Shown here piece by piece: positions 1,058 through 62,540 of a DNA stretch of 64,000 nucleotides. Below the pieces are notes generated by a model. It ran no database searches and was not told the DNA's origin. It saw only the letters and a program-made list of their open reading frames with translations. Position numbers and translations under genes: made by a program. Every line of letters starts with the position of its first letter. The first letter of the stretch is position 1. Source of the stretch: Trachythela sp. YZ-2020 (lineage: Eukaryota; Cnidaria; Anthozoa; Malacalcyonacea; Clavulariidae); NCBI GenBank assembly GCA_016169945.1, contig JADLSH010000073.1:2208501-2272500 (forward strand), given 5' to 3'.

Positions 1058-1548
1058 TAAAGAAAATCAAAATATCTGATCAAAACACTTGTGTTTTTGT
1101 ATGAATGGAGGGGGGGGGGCCTTATTAGAAGTGGGCTTACTAGAGAGGTGTGCTTAATAATTTTTTCTTCACCTAAAAGGGGGGCCTTATTAGAGAGGGA
1201 GAACTTATTAGAATTGGAGAGATGCGTATATGGGAGGGGGATTATTAGAGAGATTACGGTGTTTTTTGGTTAGAATGGGAATGAAATAACCATGTTAAAA
1301 ACACAAAAACTTTATTTTATTAGGTTACAATATATCTCGTACGACATCAAATGTTGTCCTGCATCACGTTTTATATGTTTGATATATAGATTTGGTAAAT
1401 AAAACAACCTTGATCATTTTTTAAACCACGTACCCCTCCGAAGAAGTGAATTTCTAACTTAAGTTGTGGAAGAGCTAGGTCAAGAGCTAGGTTAATGAAG
1501 TCAAATCTGTTTTATACATGGTATGTGTCTGAAAAATTTAAAATTAAC
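1058..1548. repeat. Copy-1-only insert with G-rich minisatellite
   Basis: About 490 bp present here and absent at the matching place in copy 2 (near 56690). The stretch 1105-1255 is a degenerate tandem repeat built on CTTATTAGAGAGGGGG-like units. No terminal repeats or coding potential are clear, so it could be an insertion here or a deletion in copy 2. Confidence 0.55.
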
Positions 1549-1651
1549 TGAATTCTCGAACTTTTGTCCCGTTCCTTTCGTATAATTACATATACCCACT
1601 CGACAGTCAACACACGTTTACTGTCGTCCGCGGACAATAACTTTCAGTTTA

Positions 1652-39434: not shown

Positions 39435-41050
39435 TCACACAACAACAGCAATGTGCAGACATCTTGCTCGAGACATTTCTGGAAGTTCTTCCCAAGTATA
39501 CCTTTCAAAGTTGAAAGCTTCAACCGACTTTAGGTCACGTCCTAGTTCACCCACTCCTCCCAGTACTACAATGTTGTTTCCAATAACAACTGCAGTACAA
39601 CTTCGTCTCTTATATCTCATTGGTTGTAGCATGTGACCTTTTTCTGTCTTGACATTGTAAATGATAACTGTATCTAATTGTTGGCCATGTTTGTTAGCGC
39701 CACCTATCACAACAATGTTGTCTCCCCGTCTTACAGTTGCCATATCACTCACTTCATACGGCAGTACGTGGTAACAGCTGTTTCATCCCTTTATTTATAT
39801 CGTACAGTACGACGCTGCTGAGGCTGTCTTGGTAAAACGAAGTCGTACTTCCACCAACAATCAACACATTATCATCAAATATTTCAGTGCTGTGATATTG
39901 TCTTGGTCCTGACATTCTTGATAAGGTCTTCACAGTATAGGGAGGAACAAGCTGGACTTCATGAATACAGTCAGATGTTGCATTTCCATTTTGACCACCA
40001 GTAACTATCAAGTGATCGTTATACAGCACACTGCTGTGGTATGCCAACTTAGCAGGTATTTTAACAGGACAGTCACTCCAGTGTGTTGAGAGGTCAGTAT
40101 TGATTCTAATCATACCATCCAAATTATGAGGATAACACTTACCTCCAGCAATTGTCACTTGATTGTTGTAAACAAATGAAGTCGCTCCATAACGCTTCTT
40201 TGGCATGGATTGCAATGGCAACGACGTTTTTTGACGCCAGTTAAACATCTCTACAGAATCAGTTCCTGCACCTCCAGCAACAATTATGTTTTCCTTATCA
40301 CCACTTGCTGTATTTCTTACTTTTTTTGACGTGGTTCCTTCTTTCATCTCTTCCATCTTGACAAGAACATCCTTTATTTGATCAAAACCTTCAACTAAAG
40401 CTGCTTTCAATCCTCTCACTTCAGTGTTCACTGCTTCGAGTTTTCCTTCCATATCTGCGGTATTTCTCTCTACATTTGTAACATTCGTTTCTATATTCGT
40501 CATTTTGGTTCCCATAGTTGCCATATTCTTCTCCACATTCGCAATTCGTTCCTCCATATCTGCCAACGTTTTTGTCATTTCTCGGCACGAGTGGCACAAC
40601 TTTCGAAATGGACAGAGTTCACTTTCATGAGGAATAAGATCACGCTTGTTTACAGTTACAACACAGCCTTGGTTTGTACAAACGGCTGGTCAGGGGCGGA
40701 TCTAGGAATTTTCGTACATTGTCAAAAAAATTTGGTTCCACTACCCCAGGGGGGAGCATATTTTTTCGTTGGGAAGGGAGGGGCGCTGTTGTTTTTAGCT
40801 AGACAATAAAATGACTGTTTCGGCCCATATCATGGCTCATCAGCATGCCTAGGAAACACAATTTGCCATATATTATGCTTCTAGATATCGTATTACAAAC
40901 AGCGTAACACCAAACCATGCGGTCAAAGACTCCAAATTTCGACATAACAATTTGTGTAGTATTAATATTTGGTTCGGTCGATAAAAATACATCCGCAATA
41001 CCTTGGCTGATACAAATATTACAACAAATGCCAATATAACGACTATTTAA

Positions 41051-41151
41051 CAATTAGACAACGAGGCCGAGTTGGCTATGAGCGAATAGTCAACGAGGCG
41101 AAGCCGAGTTGACTATTCGCTCATAGCCAACGAGGCCGAGTTGTCTAATTG
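41051..41151. repeat. 101-bp hairpin with threefold AACGAGGCCGAGTT motif
   Basis: Arms of 44 nt (41051-41094, 41108-41151) starting CAATTAGACAA and containing GTTGGCTATGAGCGAATAGT; the only mispairing is a 9-nt central block. The motif AACGAGGC(GAAG)CCGAGTT occurs three times in the same orientation, once per arm and once across the loop. It lies 3' of the tyrosine recombinase gene, next to its 12-bp inverted repeat. Confidence 0.85.
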
Positions 41152-41439
41152 TTTTAGTATAAACTATAGCATTTATTGAGAACTAGGGAACACAATACAA
41201 AAGTAAACAAAAGTATTAATATTAATTTTAATAACTTATTCTCCGGAAATGACGCGCCAGGTCACGCGATTACAACAAGCGACATTTTTAGAACTGTCAA
41301 GTTTCATTCTTTAAAGTTTCAACTGTTGACAAACATGGTTTTAAATATCAGCAAACTATTTATCAAAGAAAATAATACAGAAGAAATATTACAGTTTTAT
41401 ATAAATTATTTCACAACAAAGTTTCGGATGAAACAAAAG

Positions 41440-42863
41440 TTAAGAAGAATAATTGTTGTTTACGATCGACACAGTGCAGCCATGGAAGCTGTACGACTGC
41501 TGTCCTCGCATCTGAATGTTGGTTTCGTTTCGAAAGTTTTCGTTACTCAAACTCAAAGGCATCACAGTCACAGTGGATGTTGTTGGAAGCGGCTCTTTGC
41601 TGGAAGTGGTTTCTAATGCTGCGACGACATTATGAGCAGATTCATCAGCTTCTCCAGATATGAAACGACTTAAAATATTTGACATATTTTCTTTTTGTTG
41701 GAATGATGCTCTTGAGTTGTACGCCTGGATTGAAGTATCCGATTTATGGCCAGTAACTCCCTTGATGTGTCTAGCGTCTACGTGGTTATCTGACAGGACC
41801 GTGACTGATGTTGCTCGAACACAGTGGTTTGTTAGATGCGGGATTATTCCAGCTGCCTTAGATATGGTTTTCATCATGTTCGCCAGAGTGCATTCGCCAA
41901 GGGGACTATTGCAATACCATATCTCCTCTTCGTCTGGCAGAAACTTTGTGGACATTTCTGGTGGACGTTGAAATAGGACGGGTTGCATTGGATGTAAGTG
42001 GCTCAGGAAGTTTTCAATTGTTTTCACTGGGCACCGTTGGGAATTCATCACTTCAAACATCTTCCCGTCCGATTCGTCCGTGTTGTCGTTGAGGCCTCCT
42101 TGATGATTCTTTGTTCCTAGCAAGCGGTCACGTCGGAATTCAAAATATCGTCGGCCTTGTGCTGTAGTGTGGAGAACAAGCATATCTTTCGTGAGTTTCC
42201 TCTGGTTTTCTCTCCCTCGTTTACCAAAGTAAAAGGTAATATAGAACCAAGCCGTTTGTAAAAGCTTCCGAGGGTTCTTGGAGTGACAGTCGGTAAGTTC
42301 GCCGCTTTCGTACAGCTTTTGTAGTTGCTCGCTTGTTATCGGATGCTTGTAGATAACTGGACCGACTTTCCCCTCTCGAGTGAGTTTTTTGCAGATAGCA
42401 TTCAGTGTTTTATTAGCTTGTTCAAACACAGGGTCGCCGATAATGGACCAGGGTTTGTTTTGAGGCGTTTGTTTTAGATAGCGGTCGATGGCAGATCTTA
42501 TTGCACGAAGAGTTGAGACTTTAAACTCACTCCCGTCTTGTTTTCTTGCAGCTGCATAAAACTTTTTCAGGCAGAGAGAAAGCTCGTCTTTTTGCATTTC
42601 TTCTATTTGGGCAGAAAATTCTTGTTGGCTTGCAAACCATTCTGAAATATATTTCATATATTATAAAAGGGAAGCAAATATTTTAACTTTTGTTCGTGTA
42701 AAACGTTTAAAATTGAGTATTTGTTATTTTTATGCATTTTCTTACCCTTAAAGATTGCTATTCCGTATTTTGTTGCTCTCTTGTTTTTTTCTGGCACGGA
42801 ATTGTCCAACAAGTCGTCTAAAAACTCATCAGATACTTCGGCAAAACGTGAATTTTCCGCCAT
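41440..42863 (-). CDS. Crypton/DUF3504-type tyrosine recombinase, intact two-exon gene
   Basis: Site-specific DNA recombinase fold of the kind found in Crypton transposons and in host genes derived from them (KIAA1958, ZMYM, QRICH1 relatives). Exon 1 42863-42746 (ATG in GCCATTGTTTTG context on the plus strand) encodes [19 protein letters not shown]. It ends AAGG|GTAAGA in phase 1 and joins exon 2 42641-41440 to give 439 residues without a break. A helical core-binding region (about 45-110) precedes the catalytic domain with Arg near 181 (YFGKRGREN), His312-Arg315 (NHCVRATS), His338 (VTGHKSDTS) and Tyr347 (QAYNSR). All catalytic positions are kept, unlike in typical domesticated relatives, so activity is plausible. 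The C-terminal 90 residues are Ser/Thr-rich. Confidence 0.85.
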
Positions 42864-42884
42864 TGTTTTGAATTTTGCTACTAG

Positions 42885-42948
42885 TAGACTATCACTAATA
42901 GCCTACGAGTAGCGTAGCCAATCAGAACGCAGGAAAAGTGATAGTCTA
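42885..42948. promoter_or_regulatory. Promoter-region inverted repeat and CCAAT box of the recombinase gene
   Basis: TAGACTATCACT (42885-42896) pairs with AGTGATAGTCTA (42937-42948), enclosing GCCTACG/CGTAGCC and a CCAAT box (AGCCAATCAGAACGC). It starts 22 bp upstream of the start codon of the recombinase. It may be promoter, recombinase binding site, or both. Confidence 0.5.
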
Positions 42949-42966
42949 TTACTAAGTTTATACTAA

Positions 42967-43447
42967 ATAATAATATAAATGACCTTTTGACCAACCGCAA
43001 ATATATGCTAATTCCGCCAAGCGGCTTTTACCGGCGTGAAATAGACACACTTTGAACTTAGTAATACTCAGTAATAGTATTAGTATCAGACTATAAACCA
43101 ATATAAGTAGAATCTCTTTTAATACCTTATCGCTGTACACTTCTTATTTTGTTGACGAGCAACTCTGGGTATGAAAATCTCTGTGCCAAAATCTCTCGAC
43201 AGACTGATATCGGTGTCATTGATAGCATCTTGGACAGACCTTGTATCCAAAGCGTGCATTATACTCGATCCTCAAACCAATTTGAACCTTTGCGAACAAG
43301 TAGCAATCAGAAAGACTTTCAACCCAAGTTTTATCTGGGAACCCTCTTCAATTTCAATTTATTCAAAAGATACCAATTTTGCAGTTAAAAACTGAATTAC
43401 ACTGGTTTACATGCATATGAGTAAAAATGTCTACAAACACTCCTTAT
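42967..43447. other. Spacer between recombinase gene and LINE
   Basis: No supported gene. AT-rich, with imperfect TTAGTAAT / ATTACTAA repeats near 43058-43080. Confidence 0.3.
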
Positions 43448-46035
43448 TTACACGTTGTTAATTATGATAGTTCTAGGTAAAAATGTAGCCAAACAATTAT
43501 TATTTAAAACTAGAGTTGTAGGCCTTACTACCGGCCATAATAAAACTATTAGCAAACCTACTTGTCCTATGCTTTGGTATTGAAAGACAATTATCATTAC
43601 GTAGAGAATATCCAGTTTTATGTCTTGGGGGAACGAGAGAATGGAGTTTATGGGATGTTCCTTCACACATTTGAACGAAAAATTTCTCGCAAATGGTCTT
43701 TCTCCGCAAGAACAGTGACAGCACCCCAGTGTGTACCAACGCATCTTCATATTTGAGATCAGGGAAGATTATACGAAGGGCTCTACGTTGAATACTCTCG
43801 ATCTCGTCGCTCAAATATTGCGCCAAGCTATAGTGCCAAGCCTCGCACGAAAACTCTAAAATTGGTCGAACGCAGGTAGTATAAATCCGGACTAACTTGC
43901 ACGCTGGAATCGAGGATCTCTTAAGTAATCGTAAGGCATACAACCGCTTCGAAGCTTTCTTGCAGATATAGTCAACGTGCTCGATCCATTTAAGATCTTT
44001 CGAGATCATAACACCAAGTAATTTAGCATGCGGGACCACAGATATATCATGACCGTCAATGGTGATCGGCGGAAGAGCCCCGAGATCAAGGGGAGAGAAC
44101 CCAACATGAACTTCTTTTGTTTTTGTAGGGTTCAGTTTCATGTTGTTCTCAGAAACCCATTTAGCAGATTCTGTAATTTCAGACGGTAGGACCGAGTTGG
44201 CTTCTTGACCCTTCAAGACAATCTCCCAGATAGTGGTGTCGTCCACAAATTTCACCGTATCGTCGGAGACGTTCAAGTCGTTCACCATGATGAGGAAGAG
44301 GAGGGGGCCCAGTTTTGTTCCTTGGGGGACCCCTCCGTTGATAGTTCTCCAACTCGAGAAATTAGAGCCAATTCTTGTTCTCTGACTTCTGTCAGTAAGG
44401 AAGTTGGCAATCCAATTAATTAGAATAGGGTGTACACGCATGTTAATGAGTTTCTGCATCAGAATGTTGAAATCGATGCGGTCGAAAGCTTTAGAAAAGT
44501 CTAGCATGCATATCCGTAGGCAGGCTCCAGGTGTGTCCATCGCTTCAAACCATTTATGGAGCAGGTGTATCAACGCCATGGTGGTGTTGGATCCTTTAAT
44601 TGAGCCAAATTGGAGCTTATCAATTTGGTCGCGGATTGACTGCAAGAGCCAGTTATATGGAAATGACTCCAGAATCTTACTCACTATGGGCGTGAGCGAT
44701 ATCGGTCGAAAATCAGAGTCAACATTCAGAGCAGGGGAAGACTTTGCTGCAGGGATGACATTTGCAGATTTCCACAGGGATGGGACATAACCATCATGAA
44801 TAGAGGCATTAAATATGGATGCTAATGGGCGACATAATAACGAGGAATTTTCACGGAGGAACCAAGACGTGATTTCGTCAGGTGTGTCGTCTCGGTGTCG
44901 TCGACTGAAATGTAAAAGTCGGGAGGAAAATCACCGACTTCGAGGGGCGTCCAAGCAAGCGAAGGCAGAGAATTCCCAACGGCAACGAACTTGTCGTTAA
45001 ACAGGTTGGCCAGAGCCGAATCGGAATAGGGCTGTCCGTTGTACACCAGTGTGGAAACGTTTTTAGATGGGGCAAGGCCAGCGATATTTTTGACAGCGGA
45101 CCACCACTTCCGTGAATTCGACTGAGTGGTATTAGCGACGTTGTTCGTATAATACTTTGAGCGAGCACGCCTACACAAGCTATTAATTTTGTTCCTATAG
45201 AATCGAAACATAGGCTTGTTTCCTCTGCGCCAGGTCACTTGGCGTTTCGATATTAATCTTTTTATCTCCGGAGTAATCCAGGGCTTATCGCTGCTATCAG
45301 ATTTGATACGCTTCAGCGGGAGATATTTATCAACAATACCATCGACAAGAGAAGAGAAGTATTGGAACTTTTCGTCACAAGAGCCTAGATGATACATTGG
45401 AGACCAGTTAACGCTGGATAGGGCTTCAGTGATTAACCTCCGATTGAAGGGACGCGCGTCCCTAACCATTCGGAAGGACCGTGAGTTCCTACGGTGATTC
45501 AGTGGATTTAGTAAAACTGAGTTATGGTCTGAGAATCCGAGTGGAGGAACAACTTCAGGAACGTCGTAAAATTTCGAAATGTTCGTGAATATTTTATCAA
45601 GAATGTTTGATCCTCTAGTAGCTTTCTTCACAATCTGTTTTAAGGAAAACGAATTACACAGTTGACGGTGTTTGAATTGGTTGAAGTCGCCGGTTAGGAT
45701 GATAGCAGCTCCTGGGTTTGCTGTTAGAGCGCGGTCAAGGGACTCGGTAAGATAAGCCAACATAGCCCTATTGTCACTACTTGGCGGATGATAAATGGCT
45801 CCCAATACGATTGAATTAATGCCACGTGGTAGGCGTCTTGATTTGATTAATAGCCACAAGGCTTCAAATTCAGGGTTCGAGAGATCTTTCAAATGGACTA
45901 CAGGTAGATTGCAGAGAGCATTAGGAACCAGGGCAGAGTCATTAGGAACCAGGGCAACTCTCTTGATTGCAGAGAGCATTAGGAACCAGGGCAGAGTCTG
46001 CAGCTCTGTGCATGCGTTCGGCCAGTTCAGAGTCT
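43448..46035 (-). pseudogene. Non-LTR retrotransposon: endonuclease and reverse transcriptase, 5' truncated
   Basis: Minus strand, from the middle of an APE-type endonuclease (LGAIYHPPSS, ILTGDFNQF, LGFSDHNSVLL with the SDH motif) through a linker (KPWITPEIKRLI, KWWSAVKNIAG) to the reverse transcriptase. Visible: MLDFSKAFDRIDFNIL (motif A), NGGVPQGTKLGPLLFLIMVN (motif B), KFVDDTTIWE (motif C), then thumb, LEFSCEAWHYSL and SIQRRALRIIFPD. Frame breaks lie near 44830 and 43750. The 5' end near 46000 has a small direct duplication of ATTAGGAACCAGGGCAGAGT. Jockey/CR1-like; inactive here. Confidence 0.85.
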
Positions 46036-46869
46036 AAGGGGCACTATATTGATAATAAAAGGTACTCAAAACCTGGCTGACAAGAAAAAACGGTTAGTGT
46101 AAAAGTTAACATCAAGATAAGACCCAGCATGACAGTCAACTCGTTCAGGTTGATTTTTTGTTTGCCTGGAATAAATTATTCCTAAAGGATATTTTAATGG
46201 GAACTCATTTAGGCATGTATTTCTGACTTAGCGTTGGGTAAATTTACTTGACTCGCATTTCGGACCTGAATATGACCCGCTGTAAAATTAAGTTTCATGC
46301 GATGAAGTATTGCCCCCTAAAGACAGTACTTCCACGCTATGATCTACTTACTGCATTCCTTCAAACGAGTTAGTTACGCAGGTAAAAGTGAAATATTTGG
46401 ATTGTTTAATGGCTACTTGGGGAGATGGGCGACGTCTTTTATACAATGAAACTATAACAGCGAGACATGAATCTGTATCCCTTTTTCCTATGGTAATTCC
46501 CACTGACCAGGCTCAATTTTAATATCCTTCTAGTTTTGTAAAAATATTTCGACATATTTTTCGACCTTTGACCATTTGTTCAATGATGTGCAATTTGTAC
46601 ACGCTATTCTCCCCTGTAAAAGATAACAAGAAAATATTTAAACCTCGAGAAATTTGAGCAAAGACGATATTTGTAGCCAGAGCTAACAGATAAATATTTT
46701 CTTACATTTAGCTCCAAAGGAGTTTACCATATTGTTACATGCCTGAAAGGCAGGGCAACTGGAGTTTTTATACAAGCAAAAATAGCAGGACAGCTAGTTT
46801 TTTTATATCACACATGCAACAGACATAACAAAAGTTAACACAACGTAACATAACATGCACCGAATCACT
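46036..46869. other. Spacer, no gene seen
   Basis: No coding region or repeat structure could be supported in this stretch. Confidence 0.3.
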
Positions 46870-46875
46870 CTGAAA

Positions 46876-46967
46876 AATAAATTGGTTAAAATAACCCATA
46901 AATTGATGGTCTCAGATCCAAAAGTTCTGAGACAACCAATTTATTGGCTATTTTAACCAATTTGTTT
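46876..46967. mobile_element. Short palindromic element, TTGGTTAAAATAAC family
   Basis: Near-perfect palindrome of about 90 bp: AATTGGTTAAAATAACC, GGTCTCAGATCC and the inverse TCTGAGACAACCAATT, TATTTTAACCAATTTG. Longer relatives lie at 62735-62933 and, split, at 8897-8917 plus 17183-17366. Confidence 0.75.
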
Positions 46968-46989
46968 TTACATGAACGCGTGATGTCAG

Positions 46990-47105
46990 TATAGATATAG
47001 AGTCTAATGAAGATTCGGCGAAGGCCCTTCGTCTGCATGGAAGTTAGTGAAGGGCCTTCCACGAAACGTCGAAGTTTTTATTGTATTTTCAGGTAGTTTT
47101 ATCCT
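46990..47105 (+). mobile_element. Penelope 3' tail fragment
   Basis: Carries GAAGGGCCTTC, ACGAAACGTCGAAGTTTTTA and TTTTCAGGTAGTTTTA as in the two Penelope copies, with an internal rearrangement. It abuts the BEL/Pao remnant. Confidence 0.6.
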
Positions 47106-47129
47106 ACTCCACATTGACCTCGATAATTT

Positions 47130-48000
47130 AAGATTTACTGTTGGTGATCGCGCGCCTAGTTCATCTTTGTTGACTGAACCATTCGTTCCCAGGCTCCGCC
47201 CATATGCGGAGCATACGGAGGGTTACAATGCCATTGAATCATGTTTGATGCCAGAAAATTCTCAATTTTTGCCTGGTCCAACCTTTCGAAACCCTCACGC
47301 AGTTCTCTTTCAGCGCCCGCAGTTCTCTTTCAAGTTAGTTCCGTTGTCCGAATACGTATCAGATGGTTGACCTCTATCGGTCATTCTATGTGTTAGCGGT
47401 TTTGCCCTCAACCTCTTGCAGACACAACAATTAAACTTTTCAAGTGCTGGCGTAGCAAACTTCTGGCTCCGACGATCCAGTATTGACGCCGTAGCAGATA
47501 CAACAAATGATTTACTCCCGGATGACGGTAAAGTTATGATATTCACGAACAAGCAATCTGGTTAATGGATGTTTGCCACACAGAATGATTGGGTTCTTCG
47601 TCGTTTCGGGCAATGGAGCGTTACGGAGGCGACCTCCTACGACCAACAGTTCATTGTTCAACTTCGGCGATAATGAAAGTAATCGTCTTCGAGACCGAAC
47701 GGGTTTGTTGACACGCAACATTTGAACTTCCTCGTTAAAAGATTCTGACTGTGCTGTCTTTATCAACGTGTTCATAGCTAACGTCAATTAACGGACCTTT
47801 AACGGACCGGTGATTCTTTCGCCTTTTAGAGCACGGGTATTGTGGATAAACCGATGACAGTAGGCAACAAATACGCGACGTAACTCGCCAAGTGAGGAAT
47901 AGTTTGTAATTTGAACTAGGCAGGACCCACATCTTCTTGGAGGACTCCGACCCATTTAACTTGCTTACATTCTTCTTGGGGTTCCACCACACGCTCGAAT
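47130..48000 (-). pseudogene. BEL/Pao LTR-retrotransposon integrase remnant
   Basis: Minus-strand fragments in several frames: NNELLVVGGRLRNAPLP and HPLTRLLVREYH (region before the zinc-binding part), CVCKRLRAKPLTHRM (HHCC end), TYSDNGTNLKE (catalytic Asp/Asn segment) and, in another frame, NPPYAPHMGGAWERMV (integrase core end). The sequence between CKRLRAKP and YSDNGTN is shorter than in complete integrases, so the core has an internal deletion. Inactive. Confidence 0.75.
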
Positions 48001-48177
48001 CTCCTCTCCGGCCATTTGTCTTCTTCTCTATACATATATTATTCAGCTCACTCCCAGTCGGGGCTTTTCAGTGACCGATTACATCAAGTATTTCGCTTAC
48101 CTATATTACGTACTTAGCCTACACTATATATTTTTACAACAATTGTGATATTACTTTCTTAATCTACATAGTGGTAG

Positions 48178-48280
48178 ATTTTGTATTGGCGAATTTGTAT
48201 TGGCGAATTTGTATTGGCGAATTTGTATTGGCGAATTTAGATTTTGTATTGGCGAATCCGCATTTGTATTGGCGAATTTG
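48178..48280. repeat. Minisatellite, TGTATTGGCGAATT unit
   Basis: Six copies of a 15-16 bp unit TTGTATTGGCGAATT with two short interruptions (TAGATT, CCGCA). Confidence 0.9.
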
Positions 48281-49269
48281 TTCTTCACTACTTTTGCTTA
48301 TACAAAAATCTTCCTTGCGGTAAGGAATATGCATTTCTCAGGGGACGCGATCGGTGATGCTCAACAGAACAAAGTCCATTAGATTTAAACAGGAAAAGAG
48401 CCTTACGAGAACAAAAACTTGCCAAGTCTTGTGCACTTGTGGTTGTTACCAGCTATCTCTGTTATATTCCTTCTCTTGTCTGTTACTCATATTACAAAGA
48501 TGATCATGTGACGATCAAAATTTCCCTTAACTGGTCCATGACCGTTGCTGCGTTAAATTCAAGCCTTAATTCCGTCATTTTCTTCTGGAAAAGACCGTAG
48601 TTAAGAGGCGAAGCGTTGAATGTTTTGAAAAGCATTTTTCGTGAATAGGTTGGCCCCTTTTGCTTGGGGTCCAGTGAAGATTCCCGTCTCCGCTTTGACC
48701 ACTGGCGAAACATCCAACGGCAAACAAGAGTTGTTGTGAGCACTCAACTGTGCCAGATATATACTAAGCGAAAAATAACTAAAATTGCTATATTGACAGT
48801 AGCAAAGGCAGATGGGGTTTTACCTTCCTAAAACCTTTAACCTAAATTTTTAAATGTACCATCATAACACCTAATGATGACCGTTCATCCACGTACAATT
48901 TTGATATATATAATCTAGAGGCCTAAAATAAAATGCACCTGGCTTCTAGCAGGCTTCTAGCCCAATTGTTGTAAATATGTTATTTATTTCTTTTATTTGT
49001 AATTGTAATATTTTGGGCGAATTAGTAAATAATAATAATAAATAGCCCTCACATGTTTTTGTTTTGAAAGTTTGAATATAGATTTGCTGCCATGTTTTAA
49101 TTCCAGCTTACTAAATTATTTCAAGATAGTGCATGTCGGCAAAGTTTAACTAAACCACTCAAGCATAATTAAAACACTTTAAACTTACAATTTGAGACTC
49201 AGTTTTATTAAATGCGTCAAAGCAAAGCAAAACAATAGATTATCGTTCGTTTTTCAAGTCATGTTCATT
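48281..49269. other. Spacer with one unassigned minus-strand frame
   Basis: A minus-strand frame at 48743-48504 (79 codons, basic N terminus WSKRRRESS) could be part of the neighbouring BEL/Pao element. I cannot match it to a family. Nothing else is supported. Confidence 0.3.
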
Positions 49270-51410
49270 ATCGGCCATTGCTTGTGACCTACCACAACTG
49301 CCTTATAAAAAACATTTTAATGCCTCATACACCTTGCAAACATCAAGAATGTTTTACATCATTTCAATTTTCACACATATTTTTTTGTTGAAGTTGCAAA
49401 TTAATATTTCGTGTGTATAATTGAGAAATTTGCGTGTCAGTTGTCATGACCTGCTATATAAAACTTTTAACAAACCTTGTCAAAATACAGTATTGTTTTA
49501 AATTTCATATGCTTTTACATCTCTGAGTGGTGTAACTTGGCAGCGATAATTATCGCAATAGCGACAAAAAACTTTGTTGTAACTACGAAATTGTAGTATG
49601 TGCAGTGCAAACAATTTTTATTTTCATGTATTTCCATATTATTGCTTCCACGTCAATCGTTTGGCTCGCATTGCCGATGCTCGCTAATTTACAACCTGTT
49701 GTTTTCCTGTCACACTGAAACGACTTTTTGCCATTAGCAACTGATTCCTGTCACAAGTACAAACGCTCACGTCATTTGAAAAAGAAATTCATCTCAGTTT
49801 GATAAAGAAAATGTCGAGGTAAGTATATTATAGTTATGACTAGCATTCAATACAATTTATGCCTGCTTTTGCGACAATGACAGCATACACTGCATGTAAA
49901 CTGTATTCATTAGTCATATACATATAAGGGAGGTGTATAATTTTAAGCGAGAATTGCAGCTATTTGGCATTTTGCAATCGTAGAGAAACAAAATAAATTA
50001 AGGACAATTAGGTGTTACCTCAAGCTAATGAAATATATTTGCAAAAATGGAAGAAAAACAAAGTTCTTCTTTGAAATTGATCGATATAAAATAAGTGAAA
50101 TTAATATAAATGATACTTTAACTTTGAGAAACCAAGAATCTCTTTCTCGTACATGTTTAGCTTTGCCAAAATTGAAAGATATTTTTTATCAGAGAGTATA
50201 GTTTCCGCTACCGTTTCTGTCTCATATGGCCACAAATTTTTAAAGTGAAGTATATATTAGTTGAATTTAAGCAAGCTAAAATAATCTTTTTGGAAGATGT
50301 TTTCAGTTGGTGTAATGAGAAAAGAAAATATTACCTAAAAGGATGAATTTTTTTCACTTGCTGTCGTCAACATACTGCCTGAAATGGAGTAGCCTAGTTT
50401 AAAAGCGTCTTTTTGGCATCGTATGCATCGCGTGGTATCTGATGAAATGCAACGAAACAGTTAGATCATTACGTGCTCTGCTAATGTCGTTAGTGTATAT
50501 AGATTGTATTAATTATTTGAGGTCATCGCTTGTGACCTGCCACAAACTTTTAAAAAACATTTTAATACCTCATGCAAGCTGCTAAACGCCTTGCAAGTAT
50601 AGATAGATAGATAGATTTTTTATTTTTATTAAGTTCAAAAATTTGCAGCCTCTTACAAATCAGCTGAATTATATTCGAACTACATGACATTATTAATCAA
50701 ATAAATTAGGAAATGTACTAGCTGCGCTATATATACCAAGTTGGATTCGAAATATAAAAATTCATAACTATTTTACATTATAAATAAGAAATTTACTGTA
50801 GTCTATATACTCTAAACATATTAAGAAAAGTATTAATTATCCAAATATTTGTTATTAACATTTGTTGGTAAAAAGCTCTTCCGAAATCTGTCTGTTTTAC
50901 AAACTGAGTCTTTAAGGAAGGTATAAAGTATCATGTTTCCAGCAGAGAAGTCAAGATGTTTCATATCATTTCACAGTATACATCTTTGTGTTCAAGTTGC
51001 AAATATATAGCGTGTGTAATTGAGAAATTTGCTTGTCATGACCTGCTAAAAACTGCTCACGCCGCTAAAAGCCCTGTCAAAATACACTAGTGTTTCGAAT
51101 TTCCAATTTCATATGCTTTTACATCTCAGAGTCGATAAATATTGCGATAGCTACAAAAATCTTTATCATAATTATGGCATAGGACTATGGCAGTAGCCTA
51201 TGTGCGGTGCAAAAATGAACCAAAAAATCTAATTTCATATATTTTCCCTTCTAGTACTTCTATTCAATACCTGCATGTCAATCAATTGGCTCTCAATTGC
51301 TCTGAACATTTACATGTAACCTGCATGTTGTTTCGGCACTAGTTCTGTCACACTGAAACGATTTTTTGCCATTGAGTAAAATCCCGTCACAAATATCCCA
51401 TGCACCTTTG
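49270..51410. repeat. Diverged tandem duplication in the first intron and promoter region of the PAN-EGF gene
   Basis: Segment 49270-49800 recurs diverged at 50525-51400. Landmarks: GCTTGTGACCT, CATATGCTTTTACATCTC, GTCACACTGAAACGA and TTTTTGCCATT. The second copy contains an extra 355 bp (50601-50960) that begins with a (GATA)n tract and resembles a reversed LINE 3' end. The first copy directly precedes the start-codon exon, so the second could be a duplicated promoter or 5' exon. Confidence 0.7.
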
Positions 51411-53620
51411 AAATTATGAAATCTGTAAAGAGATATTATGATATAACTGAACAAACCTTCCTTAAAATTTAATGTGCTCCTTTACTCCCTTACGTTCCAG
51501 TTTTATTTCTTTATAGTTTTTGGTTGCTTCCAGCTAATATTCTTGTTCTGTTTTCGCGACTACCAGTTAGTACAGTGGGAAATGTAATTGTACACAGATA
51601 TCAAAACAAAGTTCTCGTTGGTCACATTTATCGTAACATCACGTCTCTAGATCCACAGAAATGCCTGGAGTCTTGTCTAGCGGAGTGTCGTTGTCTTTCG
51701 TTTCAAATTTGTGCTGCTTCTCAAGATTGTCAGTTGTCTTCGTCGAACAAAATGTTAAGCGAGTTTTCATTTGAAGATAGCAAAGACTGTGATTACATGG
51801 AGTTTCAATATAAAGATATAACGAAATCAAAGGTAAAGGCACTTCTATCCATTTCCTTTCAAGAAGCAAACCATTTCGAGCTGTTTTTGGATTCACATGA
51901 GTTAAGCGTAATTAATTTTTGCTACATGATCTTTTTCAGTAGATTGACAAATATAGTTATATATAAAGAGGCAAATATAATTATATAAATATGAATATGG
52001 TGTATTTGCGATAAAAATACTCACTTGCCATGGAATAGCCTGCAGTGCGGGGTCATGCGGTTTGACTTCCCAAACTCGCACAACTCCTGCACTGCAGGCT
52101 AACTATGAAAGTACTTACTTCCAAAGTTCTTGTAAAGAACATTTCTACTGGTTCTTGTTGTCACAAGGAAGATGCGATGAAATTTCCCACTAAAAGACCT
52201 TTAGCTGTTTCCTTAGAGTAAGCGCTTTTGTTTTCCGTTTGACCGCGATGTTCACAGAGTCAGGGGAGTAAAACTAACGTTCTAATAAATTATAATTCAA
52301 ATATTTGCCTTTGAATGACACCACGTTATATAATTTATATTAGAGAGCTTAAGAAAGCGACGTTTTTGATTCGTGAACGCCGACCGGAAGTAAATTGAGC
52401 CGTTATAGATGGCGACAGCCGTTCTTGTTTGAAATCACGAAAATGAAACCACGTTGACTTACTTGACTGCCGTTCTTGATTTCCAGCAAGAACTCTGACA
52501 CCATGTTTAACGCTTAAATAATATACGCGTGACGTCCTTGTTGTCAAAAACGTCGCTTGCTTAAGCTATTTATGAACTGTTGGCTGACACACAATGTTAT
52601 GTTATTTTCTTTGTCTGTAGGTCCGTGCAGAACAGTGTAGTCACATTCAATGTGTGACAGATATTAATTGCTGTCATTGACATTATGTTATACTATTTTC
52701 TTCTACTGTAGCTCCATAAAAACAGTGCAGTGACCGTCAGTGTATAACAGATATTAATTGCTGTCTGACACACAATATTGTATTATTTTCTTCCACTGTA
52801 GCTCCAGATCGGACAGTGCAGCCACGGTCAATGTATGGCAAATATCAATTGCTGTCTAACATCGACATCATGTTACCATGGTGGTACATGTATACCATCT
52901 TTGTCACAACACCAACGTTTTACTTGCAAATGCAGGCCAGGTTTCAAAGGGCAGTTTTGTGAAGAAAAAATGAAATCATGTCGTGATTACAAGCTCAAGG
53001 ATGGGAAACATGTTCCAGGGAGCTACACGGTTGTTGATAAAAATGGTAATCCCTATGTTGTGTTCTGTGCTTTTAATGAGATTGGTAAGACGATTTGGAC
53101 TCTCATTCAGTCATTCAGTCTGGAAAACAATGATACATTTGCAAGCCCATTTACCACCGATAATCCCAAAAATGAAGAGAATTTTACGTGGTACGATTAT
53201 CGACTCTCGTACGAACGAATGGCTTATATTCATAGACATTCTTTGAAATGGAGAATTACTTGCAACTATGAAACCCAAGGGTTATTATTCCATCATGATT
53301 ATGTTCGTGCTTTAATTTCAAAAATACCTCTTTTCACTTTATTCACCAACCATGGCGACTGTGTTCCTGTTCAACGTATTGTAATTCGTGGACACGGATG
53401 TAAGAATTGTAATGCTTCCATGATTCAATCAAATGAACTTCCTTTACATTTTGATGGATGGCAAACACGTGATTGCAGCGGCGTCAACATTCCTGGAACA
53501 AAGAACTGTGCTGGTGGGAAAAGGGAAGACAGCTTTGGAAATTACAAATGTATAAATCCCGCACACAGCTGTTCCTCTTCGCCGTCTGCGACAACACAAA
53601 CTTGGTTAGGTGGGGTTTAA
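49811..53620 (+). CDS. Secreted PAN/apple-EGF-fibrinogen-like protein
   Basis: Extracellular adhesion- or recognition-type protein. Model: exon 1 coding part 49811-49818 (ATGTCGAG|GTAAGT), exon 2 51517-51832 (after TTTATAG), exon 3 52802-53620. Phases match at both joins (2 then 0) and give 380 residues. The exon 1-2 join creates MSSFWLLPANILVLFSRLP, a convincing signal peptide. Next is a PAN/apple domain (LVGHIYRN, CLESCLAECRCLSFQICA, DCDYMEFQY), an EGF module (QCSHGQCMA, CYHGGTC, CKCRPGFKGQFCEE) and a region starting CRDYKLKDG, GSYTVVDKNGNPYVVFCAF, TIWTLIQSF that resembles the opening of fibrinogen-related domains. It ends with a Cys-containing, Ser/Thr tail. A polyadenylation signal AATAAA is at 53871. 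It lies wholly inside the hAT-bounded segment. Partners unknown. Confidence 0.75.
52580..52870 (+). repeat. Triplicated splice acceptor and exon start
   Basis: Three 90-91 bp units, each with a pyrimidine tract plus TGTAG and the start of exon 3; acceptors fall at 52621, 52712 and 52802. Units share ACAGTGCAG/AACAGTGTAG and ATTAATTGCTGTC. Units 1 and 2 soon meet stops in the exon frame (unit 2 through a 1-nt deletion); only unit 3 leads into the open exon. Confidence 0.85.
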
Positions 53621-54394
53621 ACCTGTTTCATTTATTTATCACTGCTTTCTGTGGAGAAGATAGAAATATTCACGTAATATATAACTTGGCTGTGGCTAAA
53701 ACCGTTGCATTCACTTGACTATTCAATTTGTAGGGAAACTGGTATTTTTATCGTAATATTAGGTGCCAGCATACAAATAATCATATTAACAAAAATCAAC
53801 GGCGAACCTGCATACAGCAACATACTGTATTACGAAATTCAAATACCAAATTCATTTCTAGACTAAATTCAATAAATACATGGCGACTCAGGCATAATGG
53901 CGACCCAGGCATATTGTTTTCCATATATGTAAGGCTTGCCTTGATTTCTACATACTATATTGGCCTGTATTAGTTTATTTTCATTTCGTATGACTGAAGA
54001 CTGCTGAATACCCCAACGAGCGCTGCTGAATACCCCAAGGAGCGAATTAGTCAAACAAATCGAGCCAATGAGTAAGGAGAATATTTCCTTTGCAGCCAAT
54101 CAGAACGCTCGAATATTGCCCAAATGAGTCAGACCCCCGCAAACTTTAGTCAAAATTCAAATGGACCAATCAAATGGCTAGAATCCGCCTCAGATTAGTC
54201 AAAACTCACGCAGATAACCGATATTTTGACTTTTTTACTGCAGGCTCGGCCGCTGCACGAAATTGATAACTGGAGTATTTTTTGAATATTAAGTATTTCA
54301 CTGTCGGCTGCCGCTGCATGAAATATTGCAACTGGACTATGTATTTTTATATGTGCGCAATTTTTACCTTAGTCGCGTGACTAGTTTGACTACC
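53621..54394. other. 3' flank of PAN-EGF gene to the hAT right end
   Basis: No gene. Contains a local direct repeat CTGCTGAATACCCCAA (54000, 54027) and several CCAAT motifs (AGCCAATCAGAACGCTC at 54095). Confidence 0.4.
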
Positions 54395-54759
54395 CCTAGA
54401 TCCGCCCCTGCGGCTGGTGTATATCCACATGTATCCTCACGGCGGTCAAGATGTTGCAATTGTACAACTTCTTGACAACCTCTGTTGATGTAAACGCAAT
54501 GAATTTTTTATTCATTCAAATAATCTTTTACCATTCTTGGTGGTTCGGTCAAAATCTCTACGGTCAGTTCATCGGCACACATAGGACATCTTTGGTAGTT
54601 CTCGAGATGTTTCGTAATACAAGCTCGACAAAAACAATGTTTATTTCTTGGACACAGGACCGGGTCTCTTAAAACATTGAAGCAAATCAAACAAAGGAAA
54701 TTTCGATTGACTGTGGTCTCGAGCCTTTCTTCGTCGTAACCTCGGATATATGACGCCAT

Positions 54760-55697: not shown

Positions 55698-57103
55698 ACA
55701 TATATTTTTACATTAACTCATAATACATGTTTTGCTGTGGTCAAACAAATATAAAAAGTCGGACCCTGAACAATGGACACCCCTGGGCTTGTGACAAAAG
55801 GTCATAGCCTCATATTGATACTGGCTTGCAATTGGTTACGTTTTGTTAACAAGAATTTCGTAATTAATATATTTGAGAAGGGGTGGTTTATTTATTTTTC
55901 CGCAAAATGGTATGAATTTCATTATCAAGCCGGACATTTGCCTTGCTGAAGGGCACAGGTGCACTTCCATAAAGTATGAGACGCCGTTTGAGGCTTCTTC
56001 GAGAGTCTTTATATCTGCCTATGCTTAGCTCGCATTACTTCTAATTTATACACAGACAGTCATTTTCTGGTGCTTTTAATAACGAGGAGTTTCAAAGAAA
56101 GCAGCACAAGTGTAATTCCAGTGGCAATTAATGGAAATGACTGGAGGAGGCAAAATTGACAATTGCCATCAAAATATTCACCAGTTTCCAGGCTTTCTGA
56201 ATACGTGTGAACATTTGCATATTGCGCATGAACAATTCGTGAAAATCAACTGTAAACTTTACTCGCTGGCTCAGCGCTTAATAATTTATAGACTATAATA
56301 GCAATTGACAATGTTTGCGCACTTCAACCCCCTGTGTCCGGATCTAGGTTAAGGATTTATTGTTAAATCATTAACGTGTTCTATCTAAGGTCACGAAAGT
56401 CGTGTGAACATTTCAATAAAGTCAAATTTTCATTGTACTATTCTGCAGTCTGGCACCACCGGCGGCTGACACTTGATATTTAACTGACCAGATGTCTCGG
56501 CATTTTTCCCCATGTTTGTTTATGGTTTGTTCAAGCACGGTACAATGCATGTTTAACAGTTAATGTATGCATACCAATAATTAAATGTTTCACAATTATG
56601 AGTGTCAAAACGTATGAATGGAGGTACTGATGACAGATACACATGAAGTTGAATGTCATACAACCAAAAATAGAAAGTAAATTGATTTACTTTTTGAATT
56701 CTAGAACTTTTGTCCCGTTCCTTTCGTATAATTACATATACCCACTCGACAGTCAACACACGTTTACTGTCGTCCGCGGACAATAACTTTCAGTTTATCA
56801 AATAAGAAATAGCATAAATTGCAGCCATGGTAAGCCAGGCCTGTAGTATAAGGGAATTTCTTGTCGAACCACTCGTTACTTGTCGTTCAATAAATCCTTC
56901 AGGGTCCATCAGAAATTCACAATGTTTTTCACGTAATTTTATTCCAACGAGCATCTGAGAATAACTTTCCATATCCAGAAATTCTTCTTTACTATTGCTA
57001 TGTCGAGGCCATGTTGGTAAACTGTCGACCTTGTCTACCATAATCGGTAATTTTCTTGTGCCTAAATTTGGATCTCTGTAAAAAAGAAAGGGAATCAGTT
57101 GTA

Positions 57104-57372
57104 CAATCGTAGACAATTTTACTCGGACTAACATGGCAAAGAAAATATTTTTTTAAACATATTTATATATCCTTCATAAATTAGATCCCCCCTCCCCTGA
57201 AACAATGTTGGTGAACATTTCAGTCATTGTTGCGACTATTGCGATATTTGTACCAACAACATTGGTACGGGGGAGGGGGGGATTCGATTGTATATGCGTA
57301 TAAACAGTTGATTGACTTAAACTTGAGCCATTTTTAATCAGCGTCCGCATTTTTATTGTCTAGGATTGTAGC
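57104..57372. mobile_element. Small element with TACAATCNTAGACAAT termini, copy 2 only
   Basis: About 270 bp in the last esterase intron, absent at the matching place in copy 1 (1961). Left TACAATCGTAGACAAT and right ATTGTCTAGGATTGTA are inverse with one mismatch. The interior has two G-rich tracts. Non-coding. Confidence 0.65.
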
Positions 57373-57843
57373 CTTTAATCTGGGGAACTGTTACAATCGT
57401 TGGCGGTGTCGGACCGTTGGTACCACAATGGCTAGTATATATAGTGTGCGTGTTTGTACACCTTTCGACTCTTTCCATTTGCACTTATCAGATTAAAATT
57501 CCACTTAAAAATATCTAGAAAAGATCTAATTTTATTATACCAAAATTTTAACAAAGTATAACTAGAAACGAAGTGTAGTCGAAAAATGCACGAAAATGTT
57601 GAGGATCTAAATTTGTTCATTGGTGCATGCATATCTATAAATGTGCAATGTTATCTAAAGTCTAGAGAGACATTTGATTTCTAATATCTTTCCCAGTTTT
57701 GTTATCTCAGCATAACTTTGTATCCCTATCCCAAGTCCAGGATAAATGTTTTAATGAGTACCAAATTATTGGGAAATTAAGTCGACACCATTTTCGTTGA
57801 TAAAAGAAACCTACTCGTGTGTGCTAATCATCCTAACTTGCAC

Positions 57844-58776
57844 AACAGGTGGGAATTTTGTTTGAGCATGCGTTGGATTTCGCGCGGTTGTTAGAAATGA
57901 GACCTGGGGCGAGTAAACTCGGCTATTGAATTTCCGGGCGATTCTTACACATTTTGACCTAGTTTTTTCTACCTACCGAAATTATTTAATTGATTGATTG
58001 ACTGAGAGTGTAAGCAAATGAATAATAACTTTTAAAAATTTAAAAATTGCGTAAAGAAACATCTCTATACGTATCGGAGAAGATCGGAGACTCGGAAAAT
58101 CCCAGAAAATCACCAAAATTCGTACTAGCGCGAATTTTGATGTAAACAAATTCTTCCCCAATATAATGTATATGCTATTAGGGATATTTTAAACCGTATT
58201 TGGTTTTGAGGCTCTCGACAAAATTTTGAAATATTTGATTTCTTTATCATTATACTGTGCTGATTTTCACACCTTGAATTACTATTTACTATATTAGAGA
58301 AAAAAGGCAAAATATTCATATGATTTCAAAACTGCCCATTTTTCTGGAATCAATGGACTTTAATCTCTCAACCGATTCTCTTTAACACCAGCAAGAATAG
58401 CATAAACATAGGATTTCTGGCAGCATTTTCAAAGGTACTTTTGTGAACAATTTCAGATCACATAAATAGTGTTGCCGTTTTTGGTATCAGCGCGAATTTT
58501 TATATCTAAATTACTTTGATTAAGGGATTAAGAAAGCTTCAGACTACCGTTTAAGGATAGTCTCGTTTTGAGGCTCTCGGCTAGATTTTTTACAATCTTA
58601 AGTTGAAAATTTGGCATTTTCCTATTTTTCGAAAAATGCCGATTTGGCCGTACGAAATCTCACAGGTTTTGATAATGAGAAAACTATTATAGCAATTTTT
58701 GTAAAGAAACATGCGTTGAAAAACTACGTGTGCGCCCGCAATTTGTTGACCAGCGCTGGCCAAATTCCCACCTGTT
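57844..58776. mobile_element. 933-bp DNA element with 9-bp target duplication, copy 2 only
   Basis: Termini AACAGGTGGGAATTT and exact inverse AAATTCCCACCTGTT, flanked by AACTTGCAC at 57835-57843 and 58777-58785. Copy 1 has a single AACTTGCAC (2424-2432), an empty site. A 9-bp duplication suggests a Mutator-like element, but the superfamily is not certain. No transposase. Confidence 0.85.
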
Positions 58777-58989
58777 AACTTGCACTTGAAAGCTGAGTTG
58801 AATTACGAAGGACGCAGCCCGACTTTATCTAGTCAAAGGTCTATTAAATGCGCCTCTGGTCAGGGGGTGTAGTGGGGGAAGGGGGGGGGGGGGGCAACGG
58901 GGCTGAGCCATTCCATGTCGATATGATGGGGCTGAGCTACCCCCTGTAATTTTGCACGTTTCATAATCTTAACCTGGAATATTCTTTGA

Positions 58990-59243
58990 AACTGTAGTGT
59001 TAAAATGATTTAAGTAATCTCTATTTGATCACTTTGATTCTCATGTATGATCAGGGAGCACAGCTACGATGAAAGTGTTATCCCAACCAACCCTGCCAAC
59101 ATTACTTGCGGGAGGAAACCGGAGTACCTGGAGAAAACCCGCGACCTTCGGTAGAGTCCGCATGGAGAATCGAACCCACGATCTCATTCTCAGTCAGAGG
59201 TGACAAGCCCCTGCTCTGACGATTGCGCCACCGAAAGCCCCTG
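58990..59243 (-). repeat. tRNA-derived SINE, paralogous copy
   Basis: Same insertion as at 2660-2930, inherited by the locus duplication. It lacks about 37 bp between TCGGTAGAGT and CCGCATGG, consistent with a deletion between short direct repeats. Confidence 0.6.
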
Positions 59244-60966
59244 TCCTTTGATGTTTTCCCTCGCGTCGTAACCTCTGGAAAAAATAGATATACCCATCGT
59301 GATGGACATTGGAACTTACCCGGTTTTAGCAAAATTTGTCCAATATAATATCATTCGCATAGAGAGTGTTTGATCGTCAGGTCGGAACTTCGTATTATTT
59401 ATTAACTGGCAAACCAAATACTGACTAAAATACAAATGAAAGTAGCTATCAGTTACAGCGTGATATTAATTGTAAGGCTGTCAAAAGAGTTGTTTACTAT
59501 TTAGTAGAGTCTAGTTACGAGGGAGGGATTGGGCTAGTACAACTTTAACGTTACCATGTTGCTTTTGAGGTTTCGTGATTATTTTCTATCCTGTCAGGAC
59601 CCTTATTTTGAACGCGTGGACTACAAAGCGGTTAAATAGGAAGAATTTCTTACCACAACATCAAGTGCATGAGCTGCAAATCCATATACTCCATAAGGGT
59701 ACAAGTCGGTAATATATGTTACCAATGGGGCGTGAGAATATTGAAATACATATACATTTGTGGTATTCATCAGTTTTGATCTTAGTTTAGCTTCATGTCT
59801 GCTCGCACAAATAAACATTCTATCTGATTCAAATGCAACAACGCTTCCAAGTAGGAAGGAATGCACGTCGGTTTGTATAATTCTCTCGCTTTCTCGTACA
59901 CCGCCTTCGATGAATTCTCGAAATGTTTATTTAGTGTTGTCTCGAAATGTTTTAAGTAAAAGTTTATGTTCTTAGATTGTTTCAATAACTCTTGCTGGTA
60001 CAAAAACATTTCATCTTTAGTTATTCCAATAATTATATCTTGATTTTTAACTTCTCCTTTTCCCCATAATTTTTGCGGATTGTCAGAAATGAATTCTTTA
60101 TCAACATTTGGGCCAATCCATATATTCGAAATACCCTTGCTATTCGCAACTCCCTTCCACTTGTTTTCGGTCACATTTCGAAGACATTCCAGTAGATTAT
60201 CATCATTGTTACAATTAACTTTTTCCAGAAACCATTTTAATCCATCTTTGATCTGGGAATCTGTCATAATCCCCCACGGCATAAGCATGTTTCCACTTTG
60301 CAAGATAGCTCTATCAAACAAATCCCAGCTACCTTTGAATAAAGTATGCGCCGAGACACTGGCACTCCCAGCGCTCTCACCAAATATGGTGATTGAGTTT
60401 GGATTTCCGCCAAAATTTGCAATGTTCTCTTTAACCCATTTCATCGCCAAACGTTGATCATAGAGACCGAGGTTACCTGAAAATACGGAAAAAAATACAT
60501 TTTGAATTATATATTAAGCTACGTTTTCATAATGCGATGTGTCGGGCCGATTTCGCTTCCACATTAAAAATATTTGAAAAACACGTGGCGCAAACGTCAT
60601 CTGCCGATATCACCAACTGGAAAAATTCGTCATTAACATTCGGCAAAACCTAAAATCGGTGCGGTGCGACCTATTGAAGAAGTGTAAACGTACAAAATCT
60701 TTATCGATATTTATGATTGATAACGTACCTTTAATCCTATCATCTCCAGTGGTGAGAAAGCCGAGAGCTGAAACTCTGTAATTAATCGTAACCAGTATGA
60801 CGTCACCAACTGCTACGAAATTTGTACCTTGATACTGGCCGGAACACCCATTCCGAAATGCTCCACCATGTATCCAAACCTGATGGAAATATAAACTACA
60901 TTTTAACTATCTCACTGTCTGTATTGTATAGTTTAGTTTTCAGAGTAGTTTAGTTCATTGGAGATG

Positions 60967-62540
60967 TACGGCGGTTGACTGTTGTGTAAAACTACCTGAA
61001 AAATACAATACGAATTTCGACGTTTCGAGCGAAGGCCCTTCGTCTGAAAGTTATTAGAATGGGTCGGGGAAAAACATGTGCTTGTATAGCGACTACAAAA
61101 GCGATCACGTGATAAAAAATAAACCAATCAGATGGATTTAATCAAAACAAACTATAAACAAAATATGGAAATCACGTCACAAAATATATTAGCATATACG
61201 GAGAAGCGAACATACAAAGCAATAAAGACAGAAATTCAGGAACTATATATGAGAGGAGGTCGGATGTAGAGTATCTGCTGATGGCAGGCATAAACAGATA
61301 GGAGTTATATGTAAGAGAAGCGCTCATTAATGCCGAGAGGATGGATGGTGCCAAGTTGAGAAATGAGACGCATTTCTTGGCTTTTGCGGCTATCATTACT
61401 ACCAGAAATGGAACACAGAGCTCGAATTTTCATATCTGGAACATTGTGATTCCAAGTGTTGAAATGTCTGGCAACATGTTGTTTAGCACCATTGTTTGCG
61501 ACTGACTTCCATAGTTATCTTCTCTTTACCTCTTCCCACCCCAACCACACTAAATGGTCTATTCCCTTCTCTCAGTTACTTCGCCTTCGCCGCATTTGCA
61601 GTGAAGATGAGGACTTCCACACCAAAAGTCAGGAAATGAGAATTTTTTTTGTCCAACGCGGTTATCCAATCCCTCTCTTAGATACTGCCTTTTCGAAGGC
61701 CTACAGTATTCCGCCGATCCGAAACCCTTAGAGACCATGTGTCTAATGTTCCCAACAACAAAACACCCCTAGTTCTCGGTTACCATCCCTTCAATTTTAA
61801 AGTAAGGGATGTCATTAGGAAGAATTTTCAAATCTTGAAAAACCAACCTGAAACATCTTCCATTTTCACCGATAATCCCCTAGTCTCGTTTCGACATAGT
61901 AAAAATATCCGTGAAACCCTAGTCTACAGCTCTCTACCACAGGACTCGTCGTCACCTAATGGCACGTTTCCTTGTGGTGTGAAGCTGTGTAAAACCTGTA
62001 AGTATATAGATTTTTCCACTACAATTTCGGCACCAAAATCTAAGTGCACTATTAAGCATCATTTCAAGTGCGCCTCCTCTCATCTCATCTATTGTATTTC
62101 ATGCAGTAAATGTGGCATGCTCTATATTGGTGAAACTGGTAGATATTTAACGATAAGGTTTTGTTAGCTTCGTCGTGCTGTCGCAAACAATGATGCTAAA
62201 CAACCTTTTGCCAGACATTTCAACACAGGCAATCACAGTGTTTCGGATATCTAAATTCGAGCGCTATGTCCCATTTCTGGTAGTAATGATAGCCGCAAAA
62301 GGCAAGAAATGCGTCTCATTTCCGAACTTGGTACCATTCATCCTCTCGGCATTAATGAGCGCCTCTCTTACATTTAACTCCTATCTGTTTATGCCTGCCA
62401 TCAGCGATACTCCACATCTCACCTCCTCTCATATATAGTTCCTCAATTTCTGTCTTTCTTGCTTTGTTCGTTTCTCCTTATTTTCTAATATATTTTGTGA
62501 TGTGATTTTCATATTTTGTTTATAGTTCGTTTTGATTAAA
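60967..62540. mobile_element. Penelope-like element, copy 2: inverted arm plus sense arm
   Basis: Minus-oriented 3' arm 60967-61500 joined near 61500 to a plus-oriented arm that starts late in the RT (THSHSYLLFTS-like region). It continues through YHPFNFKVRDVIRKNFQ and CKTCKYI to the GIY-YIG signature YCISCSKCGMLYIGETGR at 62092-62150, with a stop soon after (TTTTGTTAG). Compared with copy 1 the RT core is deleted, so the inversion point is different or secondarily lost. The 3' tail continues at 63541. Confidence 0.8.

Follow-up and report, generated by a model that had tools for sequence, protein, structure and literature searches.

A PAN-EGF gene inside a small hAT transposon of Trachythela: a probable stack of insertions, with one unit derived from a tandem gene array

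The window analysed here is a stretch of 64,000 nucleotides from Trachythela sp. YZ-2020 (C389:2208501-2272500), taken from an assembly of 578 Mb in 396 contigs. It contains a 13.7 kb element with the ends of a hAT transposon, inserted in a gene with RING, zinc-finger and kelch parts and carrying a gene with PAN and EGF domains. This gene-bearing element appears to be a stack of insertions and not a giant transposon. The left terminal inverted repeat (TIR), CAGGGGCGGATCTAGG, occupies 40691-40706 and the right TIR, CCTAGATCCGCCCCTG, occupies 54395-54410; each is 16 bp long. The 16-bp inverted ends and an exact 8-bp duplication, CGGCTGGT, had been reported in an earlier note made from the DNA alone, and both were confirmed by direct reading. 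That note also described a continuous zinc-finger frame on removal of the insertion. The joined frame does run over the site from RING to zinc finger to kelch; however, one in-frame TAA follows directly on the RING and the kelch part is frameshifted, lesions which the note did not mention. The struck copy of the RING/kelch gene is a pseudogene, because it has both lesions. The TAA is present in both filled copies of the locus (the second lies downstream), and the frameshift is found in the window copy and not in the second. Features are listed in Table 1.

Table 1. Features of the filled locus, in window positions
Feature	Position	Strand	Remarks
Interrupted host gene, zinc-finger/kelch part	39435..40690	-	frameshift near 39765
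Target site duplication CGGCTGGT, left copy	40683..40690	+	read directly; single copy in 10/10 empty relatives
Small hAT, first part, with left 16-bp TIR	40691..41046	+	family alignment
Crypton-like insertion, 1,920 bp	41047..42966	-	tyrosine recombinase open reading frame 41440-42660, minus strand
Small hAT, second part	42967..43319	+	family alignment
Array-unit block, start	43320..43348	+	single base C, then AACCC end of unit
Long interspersed nuclear element (LINE)	43349..45964	-	local duplication of target sequence at right end, 45907-45964
Array-unit block, remainder	45965..53973	+	ends ...TATTGG + 10 nt CCTGTATTAG; matches one whole C108 array unit
Decayed retroelement pol fragment within array unit	47156..48067	-	candidate BEL/Pao; no significant Pfam match
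PAN-EGF gene	49811..53620	+	exons 49811-49818, 51517-51832, 52802-53620; 380 aa, open
Small hAT, third part, with right 16-bp TIR	53974..54410	+	family alignment
Target site duplication CGGCTGGT, right copy	54411..54418	+	read directly
Interrupted host gene, RING part	54419..54759	-	in-frame TAA also in downstream duplicate

The genome was searched with the kelch part; 47 matching stretches were listed, the best 40 of 136 candidates were scored, and the first 12 were cut out. Two of these are the filled copies (the window and C389:2341054). In 10 of 10 related loci (L032-L041) the site is empty: the RING and kelch parts are adjacent and share a single CGGCTGGT, and none of the ten has a hAT match. 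L032 and L033 were additionally aligned; L036 has approximately 236 bp of other sequence within its RING part, some 43 bases from the site. Six relatives (L034, L035, L037, L038, L039 and L041) have a single open frame from RING to kelch, 526-542 codons from stop to stop in one exon, and the hAT target therefore lies in coding sequence. The other four (L032, L033, L036 and L040) run from RING to kelch without a single open frame. The single hAT insertion in a coding exon proposed in the note is thus borne out by the ten empty loci. RING and kelch halves split at the same place without the TIRs, an arrangement which the note had set against its own proposal, were looked for in these relatives and not found. 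RING/zinc-finger/kelch genes form a large family, with several on each of C188, C222 and C322 among the matches listed.

The three hAT parts sum to approximately 1.15 kb and together make up one non-autonomous element of a many-copy family. Genome searches with the hAT ends listed 40 matches per end (the best 40 of 453 candidates for the left end and of 712 for the right). In the 16 family loci examined, both ends belong to one repeat family, to which short TIRs are common, and exact 8-bp flanking duplications are readable at three loci (L004, L022 and L028). Ends and duplication are beyond chance, because there is one repeat family, 8-bp repeats at 3/16 loci and ten empty relatives. Plain copies are uninterrupted at the point where the window copy holds the block (13/13 of those compared across it, with single-base differences there and, in L003, a small deletion beside the point). 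The other three loci have a short gap (L026), about 410 bp of other sequence (L007) or the right end only (L020). At the point of the Crypton-like insertion, 8/8 plain copies compared are uninterrupted. The window hAT parts differ by 2.6% from a consensus of eight plain copies; those eight, from which the consensus was built, differ from it by 2.9-5.1%. No hAT transposase was matched by Pfam among the scanned open reading frames of the element; an autonomous partner was not sought. Two whole hAT copies flanking the gene were rejected as an alternative, as the parts continue one another and overlap by no more than TTT. A different 1.48 kb element with hAT-like ends lies in L017 at 3881-5362 (C389:2356381-2357862); by BLAST it shares just 49 and 28 end bases with the window hAT.

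The remainder of the element is dominated by a block which matches a tandem array on contig C108, at about 3402-3440 kb. The comparison covered 19.5 kb of this cluster, with two complete units and three unit junctions read; no hAT match was found within it. The block is 8,021 bases long in the second filled copy, and its bases 2-8,011 in that numbering align with both complete units, in two or three pieces, and partly with two additional units. Start to start, the units measure 7,919 and 7,906 bases. Over aligned bases, with gaps ignored, divergence of the block is 0.75% from unit 1 and 1.08% from unit 2. Neighbouring array units meet as TATTGG (end) and AACCC (next start), with TG between them at two junctions and 26 bp at the third; the block ends are thus 2 bp apart at two of the three junctions and 26 bp apart at the other. 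The insert therefore consists of one array unit whose ends adjoin in the array. The chance of two random ends falling within 2 bp of each other, in either direction, in a 7,906-bp unit is about 5/7906, or 0.0006. At the hAT junctions the window reads GACTTT[C]AACCC and TATTGG[CCTGTATTAG]TTTATTTTC, where plain hAT reads GACTTTATTTTC.

Genome-wide searches of the block covered the PAN-EGF gene (as protein) and window 45960-47500 (as DNA). The EGF-bearing exon has at least 145 genome matches (142 of 249 candidates scored) and therefore belongs to a large family; copies above 80% identity, among the matches listed, are found at the two C389 loci and in the C108 cluster, where they are spaced at approximately 7.9 kb and 5.1 kb. 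Long matches to 45960-47500 likewise occur at the two C389 loci and on C108, among the best 40 of 1,725; the others do not exceed approximately 210 bases and include pieces of the retroelement fragment on C253, on C237 and elsewhere on C108. One of the two 5.1 kb units (L049, C108:3428601-3430400) lacks a stretch that begins within the PAN-EGF gene and extends past the unit junction, and the other has the same match limits.

The PAN-EGF gene of the window is open over 380 codons with GT/AG introns, and its PAN and EGF domains exceed the Pfam curated cut-offs. Four amino acid changes and one silent codon set it apart from the unit 1 gene, which is likewise open; constraint cannot be read from so few. 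The C-terminal part of the protein only weakly resembles animal lectins with solved structures, namely a serum lectin and XEEL (E 0.004-0.02); the resemblance to the former runs partly through the EGF region. Six relatives of the protein were found; the named one, of the octocoral Paramuricea clavata, aligns with 58% of the query at 68% identity.

The locus recurs 93 kb downstream, where C389:2336172-2353260 aligns with window 34553-56148 in three pieces at 97.7-98.6% identity. This second copy carries the hAT at the same site, flanked by the same duplication, and measures 9,172 bp from TIR to TIR. Both the Crypton-like element and the LINE are missing from it, and their sites are clean and empty. 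These two appear to be separate late insertions; loss of both from the second copy leaving perfect sites would be much less likely than late gain. The second copy was also considered as an alternative haplotype; duplication is more likely, because the core is 98% alike and the adjacent repeats just 80-88%. It lies near the contig end and has one-base indels in its gene exons, and its broken gene frames were therefore given no weight. Divergence between the two filled loci is 0.61% in the block and 1.66% in the hAT parts (19/1,142); the small sample, alignment around indels and misassembly close to the end of the contig are possible causes of this disparity.

The open reading frame of the Crypton-like element, open over 406 codons, encodes a tyrosine recombinase by Pfam: DUF3504 (1.1e-12) and Phage_integrase (4.5e-7) both exceed their curated cut-offs. 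Cryptons are expected to have short direct repeats of 4-6 bp at their ends; ACTA could be read at both edges of the element, provided that one flank base has changed. The 12 bp at 41154-41165, 107 bases in from the left edge, match the right end, 42955-42966, in inverted orientation (12/12). A long near-perfect hairpin (-49.9 kcal/mol as DNA, z -15.5) occupies 41049-41153 at one end; starting letters like those of this hairpin end (CTATTTAACAATTAGA) adjoin hAT copy L025. The LINE reverse transcriptase exceeds the Pfam curated cut-offs, while the matches to a LINE endonuclease fall below them. The decayed pol fragment is a candidate BEL/Pao relic, a label which rests on a motif and is unproved. 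Six of six open reading frames of 40-110 aa from 47004-48067 had no significant Pfam match (two scanned at E up to 0.001 and four at E up to 1, with one chance match at 0.064).

Taken together, these comparisons suggest an order of events. A small hAT would have inserted in an exon of a RING/kelch gene copy, and an array unit would then have entered the hAT. A local duplication of the filled locus would have followed, and the Crypton-like element and the LINE would have entered one of the two copies last. What the comparisons show directly is one array unit inside the 1.15 kb hAT in the RING/kelch exon, common to both filled copies. The note had left open whether a small element was later filled or a hAT end pair had mobilised a large segment; the former stands, since plain family members run through the insertion points, and the latter finds no support, as no second place with hAT plus block occurs among the matches listed, the local duplicate aside. 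Its remark that transposon nesting alone hardly accounts for the PAN-EGF gene also holds: the block matches one tandem-array unit from another contig and is not a recognisable transposon. The parts it named are present, with the BEL/Pao label unproved; Pfam supports the recombinase, the LINE reverse transcriptase and the PAN and EGF domains.

It is probable that this stack (small hAT, one array unit, local duplication, Crypton-like element and LINE) is the correct reading and that the unit arrived as a circle, the route by circle being likely on the footprint in the DNA. Recombination between neighbouring units can release one-unit circles from a tandem array. The unit would have left the C108 array in this way; the circle would then have opened at its unit junction, and a break in the hAT would have taken it up together with a few filler bases. 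The block ends are adjacent in the array, and this is therefore the footprint expected of a one-unit circle integrated in the hAT. Circles from tandem arrays are mostly exact multiples of the unit, according to the part of the literature consulted (PMC3225859). The two complete units disagree at 79 sites. Of these, 12/16 in the first 1,000 bases of the block are of unit-2 type, and 48/63 in the remainder are of unit-1 type (Fisher P 0.0002). This order fits a circle, in which the start of unit 2 would follow directly on the end of unit 1. The sites are also clustered (21 switches, permutation test P 0.0002); gene conversion would cluster them too.

Several points weigh against a circle. Fifteen of the 63 later sites are of unit-2 type, in runs of four and five plus six others, and would require conversion or a further donor unit. 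The dividing point of 1,000 bases was picked with the data already in view, and gene conversion within the array could yield the same mosaic. The opening point, where array junctions vary (2 or 26 bp), may be break-prone; the figure of 0.0006 is therefore weakened and a linear unit is allowed. The C108 array holds units beyond those read, and the middle of the block, 47500-51400, lay outside the genome-wide searches. The circle itself is deduced from its footprint rather than seen.

A linear unit freed by two breaks at one fragile spot in neighbouring units, the 8 kb fragment being end-joined into a break in the hAT, would leave the same footprint. The junction does differ in length from unit to unit (2 bp in two cases, 26 bp in the other) and adjoins a short palindrome, CCCAA...TTGGG; the filler bases, and a 3-bp repeat where the block meets the hAT, are consistent with end joining. 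However, this route requires two breaks at the same place in two units and does not by itself predict the unit-2-then-unit-1 order of sites; it is unlikely. Carriage by the hAT itself, in which a small hAT at another place first acquired the block and the resulting 9.2 kb composite was then carried into the exon by hAT transposase, as in Pack-type capture, would agree with the intact ends and target duplication, and Pack-type hAT elements are described in maize and rice in the sections consulted of PMC8903248. Against it, gene plus block occur, among the matches listed, just at C108 (19.5 kb without a hAT) and in the two C389 copies, of which the local duplicate has the same target site and hence is not a second insertion site. 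A donor of hAT plus block could have been erased by excision, leaving no trace; even so, such carriage seems improbable. A giant hAT transposon was rejected in view of the plain copies, and no second composite occurs among the matches listed.

The 8 kb unit might also be an undescribed mobile element with fixed ends, which would have built up head-to-tail copies on C108 and also transposed into the hAT. Its opening point is the exact spot where the array junctions differ; against this, the block ends have no terminal repeats in common, the open reading frames scanned in the block (a subset of all) include no transposase, and no dispersed copies occur among the matches listed. This is the least probable of the explanations. 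A Helitron or long terminal repeat element was rejected as the nature of the block, as comparison of the 400-bp ends gave no terminal inverted or direct repeats beyond a best of 7-10 bp, the level of chance. Scarcely more credible is a PAN-EGF unit that is a replicating or mobile gene-carrying circle, with a preferred opening beside the palindrome, which builds arrays and reinserts. The probabilities given to these explanations overlap slightly, as a mobile circle would count both as a circle and as a mobile unit.

The surroundings of the locus are themselves repetitive. Large repeats at window 1-8165 and 56161-62540 flank the locus and have more copies downstream; the region is therefore a complex tandem array. 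A short repeat at 47049-47101 has six further occurrences in the 153 kb compared around the locus. The stretch C150:5975001-5995000 (L044 and L045) is colinear with C389 from 2199.9 kb into the window at approximately 95-98%, without window 9217-16425. It would be a second haplotype or a large duplication, and carries one empty RING/kelch site.

Under the stacked reading, with the unit arriving by circle, one assembly would show the donor array, the target, the empty sites and much of the order of events for a whole gene leaving a tandem array, the moved gene having settled open and with its introns inside a transposon. Dispersal of genes by circles thereby becomes testable in an animal with large PAN/EGF-type and RING/kelch families. 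The locus is also a warning that long, cargo-bearing hAT elements can be stacks of later insertions.

With its 16-bp TIRs, 8-bp target duplication, many copies and no transposase seen, the small hAT resembles non-autonomous elements of the miniature inverted-repeat kind; unlike an ordinary member of that class, the window copy holds approximately 12.6 kb of later inserts. The Crypton-like insertion shares with Cryptons, as characterised in the passages cited from PMC3212892, a DUF3504/Phage_integrase tyrosine recombinase. Cryptons are described there as lacking TIRs, whereas the insertion here has a long hairpin on one side, and a 12-bp inverted repeat pairs the inner edge of that hairpin with the opposite end; the latter speaks against that criterion. 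Gene capture by hAT and other TIR elements has been described in plants (PMC8903248, in part), and a host gene between transposon ends recalls the Pack-TYPE transposons of that account. The present case differs from them in that the PAN-EGF gene is complete with introns, and in that there is no sign, among the matches listed, of a gene-bearing form moved or multiplied by the hAT. Duplication via extrachromosomal circular DNA is known from human duplications, as presented in the relevant portions of Takahashi and Innan 2020 (PMC7188851) and Chicote et al. 2020 (PMC7450558). The insert ends in circle order and the short indels at the joints are similar to what those portions describe; in the human cases set out there, the setting differs from the present one, where a small transposon in an exon of an anthozoan took up one unit of a tandem gene array.

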